This document shows positions 24,001-24,311 of a DNA stretch of 64,000 nucleotides, in pieces. Both the position numbers and the translations under genes were made by a program. The notes beneath the pieces were generated by a model that was given only the letters and a program-made list of their open reading frames with translations, had not been told where the DNA came from and did no database searches. Source of the DNA: Pithys albifrons albifrons. Its lineage: Eukaryota > Chordata > Aves > Passeriformes > Thamnophilidae. The DNA lies in assembly GCF_047495875.1 (NCBI RefSeq), contig NC_092486.1, positions 2,060,979-2,124,978 on the forward strand. The letters run 5' to 3'. Within the stretch, counting starts at the first letter, position 1; each line of letters opens with the position of its first letter.

Positions 24001-24126
24001 CTTATCTGAGAGAGAAAACCAACCCCTTACTGGGAGAGAAAACCAGCCACTTACTGGGAGAGAAAACCAGCCACTTACTGGGAGAGAAAACCAACCACTT
24101 ACTGGGAGAGAAAACCAACCACTTAC
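24001..24126 (-). repeat. 24-bp tandem array of splice-site-like units at the exon 3 donor
   Basis: About five 24-bp units lie directly against exon 3. On the minus strand each unit reads GTAAGTGG, then TTGG or CTGG, then TTTTCTCTCCCA, so each junction makes CCCAGTAAGTGG. GTAAGTGG occurs at the true donor and in three more units; the fourth extra copy is GTAAGGGG and the array ends TTTTCTCTCTCAG. Acceptor-like (pyrimidine tract plus CAG) and donor-like (GTAAGT) motifs overlap at the shared G. Translation in the exon 3 frame gives repeated SKWLVFSP with no stop until about 24002. Confidence 0.93.
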
Positions 24127-24311
24127 TGATCATGGTGGTGCCTCCAGCCAGGGCAGCCTTGGTCCCTTGGAAAAAGTCATCAGCAGATGTCATGCCCTGC
24201 TCTGGCATCTGGAACCTGGTGTGGACATCAATCCCTCCAGGAATCACCATCCTGCCGTGGGCCTCGATGGTCTTCACTCCCCCTGGCACAATCAGGTTCT
24301 CCCCTATTTGC
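24127..24311 (-). CDS. DPYSL2: DPYSL2 exon 3, start of the dihydropyrimidinase-like barrel
   Basis: The 185-bp exon completes the split Lys and encodes 61 residues from QIGENLIVPGG to AALAGGTTMI, ending with the first base of the next codon. The acceptor is CTCTTTTTTGCCCAG and the donor is GTAAGT at 24121-24126. The segment DVHTRFQMPEQGMTSADDFF identifies DPYSL2: DPYSL3 as I recall it has HTHFQMPYKGMTTVDDF. In true dihydropyrimidinases this site is a D-x-H-x-H metal motif; here it is DVHTR, so one metal ligand is missing, as expected for CRMPs, which are not hydrolases. The donor is the first member of a 24-bp tandem array carrying further donor-like and acceptor-like sites, and the reading frame stays open through the array (see findings). 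The next exon, expected to begin IDHVVPEP, was not found in the window. Confidence 0.95.

Follow-up and report, generated by a model that had tools for sequence, protein, structure and literature searches.

A 24-bp tandem array fused to the exon 3 donor of DPYSL2 in the genome of Pithys albifrons albifrons

Introduction

When several near-identical donors follow one another at fixed steps behind a single exon, which of them is used? Such an arrangement is a natural test of 5′ splice-site choice: oriented scanning predicts use of the first donor alone, while rules of strength or proximity permit downstream donors. It is found behind exon 3 of DPYSL2, the gene for CRMP2, in a 64,000-nt stretch of the genome of Pithys albifrons albifrons (assembly GCF_047495875.1, contig NC_092486.1, positions 2,060,979 to 2,124,978; hereafter the window). 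The contig, written C29 in contig coordinates, measures 6,075,814 bp in a genome of 1.144 Gb, and a single assembly was analyzed. A few donor-fused arrays of a similar kind are known from human genes, and a literature search, covering titles and abstract openings among the matches listed, returned nothing on a DPYSL2 donor array. We consider it likely that the array is a donor-overlapping minisatellite with a dominant first donor and a minor in-frame leak from the others.

Results

The last base of exon 3, an A, lies at 24127 and intron 3 begins at 24126 on the minus strand; a tandem array of five units starts at exactly this first intron base, so that the fusion of array and exon 3 donor proposed by a first-pass annotation of the window is borne out. 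The array and its donors are as follows.

24007..24126, minus strand: 24-bp tandem array of five units, beginning at the first intron base, detected with Tandem Repeats Finder (TRF)
24121..24126, minus strand: donor 1, TCA/GTAAGT, at the same position as the exon 3 donor of three paralogues
24097..24102, minus strand: donor 2, CCA/GTAAGT, +24 nt
24073..24078, minus strand: donor 3, CCA/GTAAGT, +48 nt
24049..24054, minus strand: donor 4, CCA/GTAAGT, +72 nt
24025..24030, minus strand: donor 5, CCA/GTAAGG, degenerate, +96 nt, overlapping a G run

TRF reported the repeat at 24000-24128 with period 24, 5.3 copies, 94% matches and a score of 221. On the minus strand the units read GTAAGTGGTTGGTTTTCTCTCCCA (twice), GTAAGTGGCTGGTTTTCTCTCCCA (twice) and GTAAGGGGTTGGTTTTCTCTCTCA (once). 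All five bear a donor-like site, GTAAGT in four (starting at 24126, 24102, 24078 and 24054) and GTAAGG in one (starting at 24030), in steps of exactly 24 bp, which agrees with the three further GTAAGT and one GTAAGG that had been described. An array that begins at the canonical donor with a unit of tens of bp is one mark of a donor-overlapping variable number tandem repeat (VNTR). The TRF score, together with the fact that four of the seven GTAAGT on the minus strand of the window are inside the array (another one is the exon 2 donor), makes it plain that the array is not a chance product. Among runs of at least three GTRAGT at a constant spacing of 8-80 in the 279-kb neighbourhood, it stood alone on the minus strand. 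On the plus strand, opposite to DPYSL2, GTRAGT runs at 55- and 59-bp spacing were seen at C29:2029513 and 2029678.

The identity of the gene was assigned from the 61-residue exon peptide (QIGENLIVPGG...GGTTMI), whose top match in the PDB was CRMP2 (119 bits; the alignment to human CRMP2 showed 59 identities in 61 residues), followed by CRMP1 (106 bits), and from the CRMP2 matches ordered on the minus strand of the contig from C29:2108299 down to 2022235. This best match and the ordered exons downstream identify the gene, by sequence, as DPYSL2. The exons within the window are the following.

24127..24311, minus strand: DPYSL2 exon 3, 185 nt, acceptor TTTTTTGCCCAG before 24311, PDB best match CRMP2
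25464..25552, minus strand: DPYSL2 exon 2, 89 nt, donor ATCAA then GTAAGTGG
29660..29698, minus strand: coding part of the CRMP2B-form first exon, MSYQGKKNIPRIT
46971..47321, minus strand: CRMP2A-form coding first exon, MAERKQ...LNDK, donor GTGGGT

The CRMP2A peptide shares GCNKVVAKQKDVAHLGPDAP with a collared flycatcher entry (P0027). In chicken the gene lies presumably on chromosome 22, an assumption for which a look-up gave no support.

Exon 4 is located outside the window, starting at C29:2056688 with TTTGCCAG then TTGACC (in the longer form, TTTGCCAG then TTGACCACGTG), which gives intron 3 a length of 28.4 kb. Read through from exon 3, the array encodes GGTTMI, four times SKWLVFSP and SKGLVFSLR before a stop, which comes after the fifth unit. 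The exon 3-exon 4 join (A + TT) restores an Ile codon and the unit is in frame, so that the phase of exon 4 is kept with any whole number of units; the earlier statement that each unit adds eight residues (SKWLVFSP), without a stop and with the exon 4 phase kept, thus stands. In the protein, the additional residues would come between I104 and I105 of CRMP2. The in-frame period is nevertheless weak evidence of selection, because 20 of the 88 TRF rows of period 7-100 in the window are also multiples of three. Tandem repeats are abundant here: minisatellites (period 7-100), merged into 38 arrays, take up 24.2% of the 64,000 nt and 15.6% of intron 3 as far as it lies in the window, and counting every tandem repeat with a period of up to 500 raises the share of the window to 31.1%. 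A 50-bp minisatellite at 46564-46908 has its near edge 63 nt from the end of the CRMP2A first exon.

Each donor had also been said to overlap an acceptor-like CAG, and the junctions to resemble recursive splice sites, in which 3′ and 5′ splice motifs are juxtaposed around AG/GT (PMC6110457). The resemblance exists, as units 1-4 end in TTTTCTCTCCCA and are followed by G; however, all five unit starts carry CAGTAAG (CAGTAAGT), in which CAG and GTAAG share one G instead of meeting at AG/GT, and use of the CAG would leave ATCA/TAAGT, with no GT. Moreover, the 18 nt ahead of each of the five array CAGs contain no A at all that could act as a branch point, and an intron between adjacent units would be 24 nt long. 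Recursive, or ratchet, splicing was rejected on the motif and the missing branch-point A, and the chance that it, or acceptor use within the array, takes place here seems next to nil.

The predicted U1 duplex was the same for donors 1-4 (-6.7 kcal/mol each) and weaker for donor 5 (-5.0). A donor frequency matrix gave 7.37 for donors 2-4, 6.03 for donor 1 and 6.09 for donor 5; the downstream sites score above donor 1 because they have C instead of T at -3. Predicted RNA folding left donor 1 more open (mean unpaired value 0.73) than the other donors (0.31-0.52), but the local 9-nt probability did not exceed 0.011 at any of the five, and the folding carries no weight in the comparison of the donors.

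With exon 3 as a DNA query, five matches were obtained in the genome, corresponding to the gene, a second copy and three other loci at 72-78% identity. In the latter, splice signals are present and exon 3 ends in the same way (CCACCATGATCA then GT), and their peptides belong to the CRMP family: the best match of L029 is DPYSL3, L030 is closely similar to mouse CRMP1, and the third locus is L031. No array was present in the 150 nt behind exon 3 at any of the three, and only one of the 14 DPYSL2 exon ends examined carries one. This distribution bears on the possibility that the array has been retained as a set of backup donors, protecting the recognition of exon 3 upon mutation of donor 1. Human F7 offers a precedent, as mutation of its first donor activates downstream cryptic donors (PMC6627357), and in DPYSL2 the downstream donors would in addition preserve the frame. 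The F7 products are, however, not functional (PMC6627357), selection for a safeguard against such rare mutations would be weak, and a protective device would have to be absent from all three paralogous loci and from the other exon ends examined; we regard retention for backup as improbable.

The second copy was also recovered by a genome search with the exact unit, which yielded three matches, two in the gene and one at C29:2243896 on the plus strand. It is described here together with the repeat of intron 3 from which its end is drawn.

C29:2243705-2244512, plus strand: isolated second copy of exon 3 with a three-unit array and a CR1-like tail, about 160 kb from the gene
23265..23912, minus strand, sense with the gene: CR1-like repeat, beginning about 95 nt after the array

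The intron 3 repeat, which we take to be CR1-like, has 92 related high-scoring segment pairs in the 279-kb region. Repeat depth in this region, sampled every 20 bases so that the edges are approximate, rises from 2 to 33 between C29:2084900 and 2084880 and drops from 104 to 9 between 2084260 and 2084240. The tail of the repeat consists of an 80-bp unit in about 3.9 copies (TRF 23270-23582). Exon 3 of the second copy differs from that of the gene at one of 185 bases and runs into a fused array that has three units, against five in the gene. The copy opens with GATCAA, the six bases with which exon 2 also ends, and these lead straight into exon 3 without an acceptor; homology to intron 2 ends at the first base of exon 3; the spliced form rests on these six bases only, for which the chance of a match at one given place is about 1 in 4,000. 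At the other end, the CTGATTCTCT repeats are the tail of the intron 3 CR1-like repeat, which continues with further 80-bp copies in the gene and is present as a single unit in the second copy. No target-site duplication was seen by eye in the flanks; CR1 insertions often occur without one. A tblastn search (E 0.1) of C29:2108300-2300000 found no CRMP2 match beyond the second copy. Given the six exon 2-end bases at its start and the CR1-like tail at its end, the simplest reading of the sequence is a retrocopy of a DPYSL2 RNA with intron 2 spliced and intron 3 retained, primed at the CR1-like 3′ end; the locus might also have arisen by duplication of DNA with breakpoints at these two places. Outside the array the two loci differ at 14 of 576 aligned bases, which at bird substitution rates would place the copy at a few million years.

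Assemblies may give the wrong unit count for a short tandem array, and the array might be such an artefact, though nothing in the analysis points to one. Against this, its units bear different variants, and the fusion of exon 3 and array recurs some 160 kb from the gene, at a locus whose unit count differs and whose flanks are unrelated. The second copy with its own three units makes an artefact less likely, to the point where we hold it very improbable, and shows that the repeat number changes. From the comparison of the two loci, the array is very probably real, very probably predates the second copy and has very probably altered its unit number since copying, in one or both loci.

To look for the inserted peptide among proteins, two insert units were added to a CRMP2 query; the search gave 735 matches from 904 candidates, of which the best 120 were inspected. 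SKWLV, KWLVF and WLVFS were found in none of these 120 homologues, with the proviso that 90% clustering may hide isoforms. By a strict pattern the exon 3-exon 4 junction was direct in 96 of the 120, held other inserts in six and was unmatched in 18; by eye, the latter comprised nine direct junctions with a changed residue, three other inserts and six sequences without the GGTTM motif. The top match, P0001 from Chelonia mydas, which scored 112 bits where ordinary CRMP2 scored 66, does not contain the array peptide; the exon 4 peptide is repeated in its gene model, and this is the probable reason for its high score. Nine of the listed proteins (P0001, P0002, P0003, P0004, P0005, P0034, P0056, P0061 and P0062) had additional, unrelated residues at the junction; P0002 repeats exon 3 sequence and P0001 exon 4 sequence, and these extras probably reflect mistakes in gene models that span the long intron 3. 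An AlphaFold model from 18 sequences had low confidence (pLDDT, the predicted local distance difference test, 39.6) and a fold matching CRMP2. In this low-confidence model the insert site falls inside the predicted barrel strand 103-108, and for this reason an insert-bearing CRMP2 would be expected to be impaired.

These data also bear on the proposal that the array is a module for graded isoforms, in which substantial and perhaps tissue-dependent donor use would add +8, +16 or +24 residues and the repeat number would vary between birds. It can draw on the equal predicted U1 pairing of four in-frame, stop-free donors, on the slightly better frequency-matrix scores downstream, on the different unit numbers of the two loci and on the one-unit retention that occurs in human ABCA7 (PMC5954066). 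The position of the insert within a barrel strand and its absence from the 120 homologues listed argue the other way, as do an in-frame period that is not unusual and the downstream donors of ABCA7 and F7, which are normally rare or silent (PMC5954066, PMC6627357). We therefore judge substantial graded use to be unlikely.

Discussion

The explanation that we favour is that a short stretch starting from the exon 3 donor was tandemly duplicated, probably by slippage or unequal exchange, possibly between the TCAG at the donor and the TCAG that closes the array, now 120 bases apart. The unit number has changed since the duplication, as the different counts of the two loci show. Every duplication would have carried the intronic half of the donor along, producing four donors of equal predicted U1 pairing in 24-nt steps, and the in-frame unit length would be happenstance. 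The first donor would be used by the great majority of transcripts, as in F7 intron 7 and ABCA7 intron 18, and a minor leak would give transcripts that insert SKWLVFSP, once or several times, between I104 and I105, probably splitting a barrel strand of CRMP2.

Several points weigh against a dominant first donor. Donors 2-4 outscore it on the frequency matrix. In human, decoy donors matching the annotated donor in strength are rare within 150 nt (PMC8964760), and donors 2-4 may thus have more influence than their counterparts in F7; to find four equally strong donors in a span of 72 nt is unusual, which makes some leakage likely. G-triplets accompany unused intronic decoy donors in the same human study (PMC8964760), and here they overlap donor 5 only. 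Finally, retention of exactly one VNTR unit was reported for 2 ± 1% of ABCA7 transcripts, independently of VNTR length, and these transcripts carry premature stops and were raised by blocking decay (PMC5954066). As they are decay targets, this figure is a lower bound on second-donor use, the true value would be above 2%, and the DPYSL2 product is in frame. The lower bound reduced our confidence in the first-donor reading slightly, and we still hold it to be likely.

A stronger version of the opposite view would make the array a splicing dial, with several donors used in neurons, mixtures of CRMP2 with 0, 8, 16 or 24 additional residues set by the repeat number of each bird, and exon 3 spliced even without donor 1; we find this quite unlikely. 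The function suggested by the first-pass annotation thus keeps its ingredients, near-equal in-frame donors and a changing repeat number (5 vs 3), while selected buffering or graded isoforms are unsupported by the protein search (0/120 listed) and by the repeat periods (20/88). What the locus does provide is a choice among in-frame products which, unlike those of ABCA7, should escape nonsense-mediated decay, and in its second copy a record of repeat turnover.

Local tandem expansion in bird introns has been described as sequence stuttering by Hron et al. (2026), mostly on chicken dot chromosomes, with units of tens of bases or more, with donors copied along with exon edges and with possible alternative transcripts noted (PMC12954441). 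The DPYSL2 array resembles the intronic form of this process, donor included, a form characterised by locally expanded repeat blocks within introns of avian dot chromosomes and by lengths that vary between individuals (PMC12954441), and DPYSL2 is not named in the available main text of that paper. Exon stuttering was defined there by at least 20 nt and at least 42.1 bits of coding exon repeated in the adjacent intron (PMC12954441). A blastn-short search for exon 3 fragments in 24,126 nt of the 28.4-kb intron 3 returned at best 11 nt and 22.3 bits, and exon stuttering in this sense was rejected. A bird minisatellite can thus start exactly at a splice site and leave the exon uncopied, and the published exon-stuttering screen (PMC12954441) would overlook it.

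The closest known systems are human. In ABCA7 intron 18 the first two bases of a C-rich 25-bp VNTR unit are the canonical exon 18 donor; the reference has 23.7 units, the median length was 2388 bp in one control group, and exon 19 skipping increases with VNTR length (PMC5954066). As in DPYSL2, donor copies follow in tandem from the canonical donor, and in ABCA7 use of the donor one unit downstream has been observed. The 25-bp unit shifts the frame and leads to decay, whereas the 24-bp unit of DPYSL2 is in frame; length polymorphism and RNA were measured for ABCA7, while the DPYSL2 array is known from the sequence of one assembly. In F7 intron 7 the repeats are of 37 bp, unlike the 24 bp found here, and only the most upstream donor is normally used (PMC6627357); both genes have the normal donor in the first of several near-identical repeats and cryptic donors downstream. 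The DPYSL2 array joins these donor-overlapping VNTRs of the ABCA7 and F7 type, and is unusual among them for its in-frame unit, its four near-equal donors and its captured second copy.
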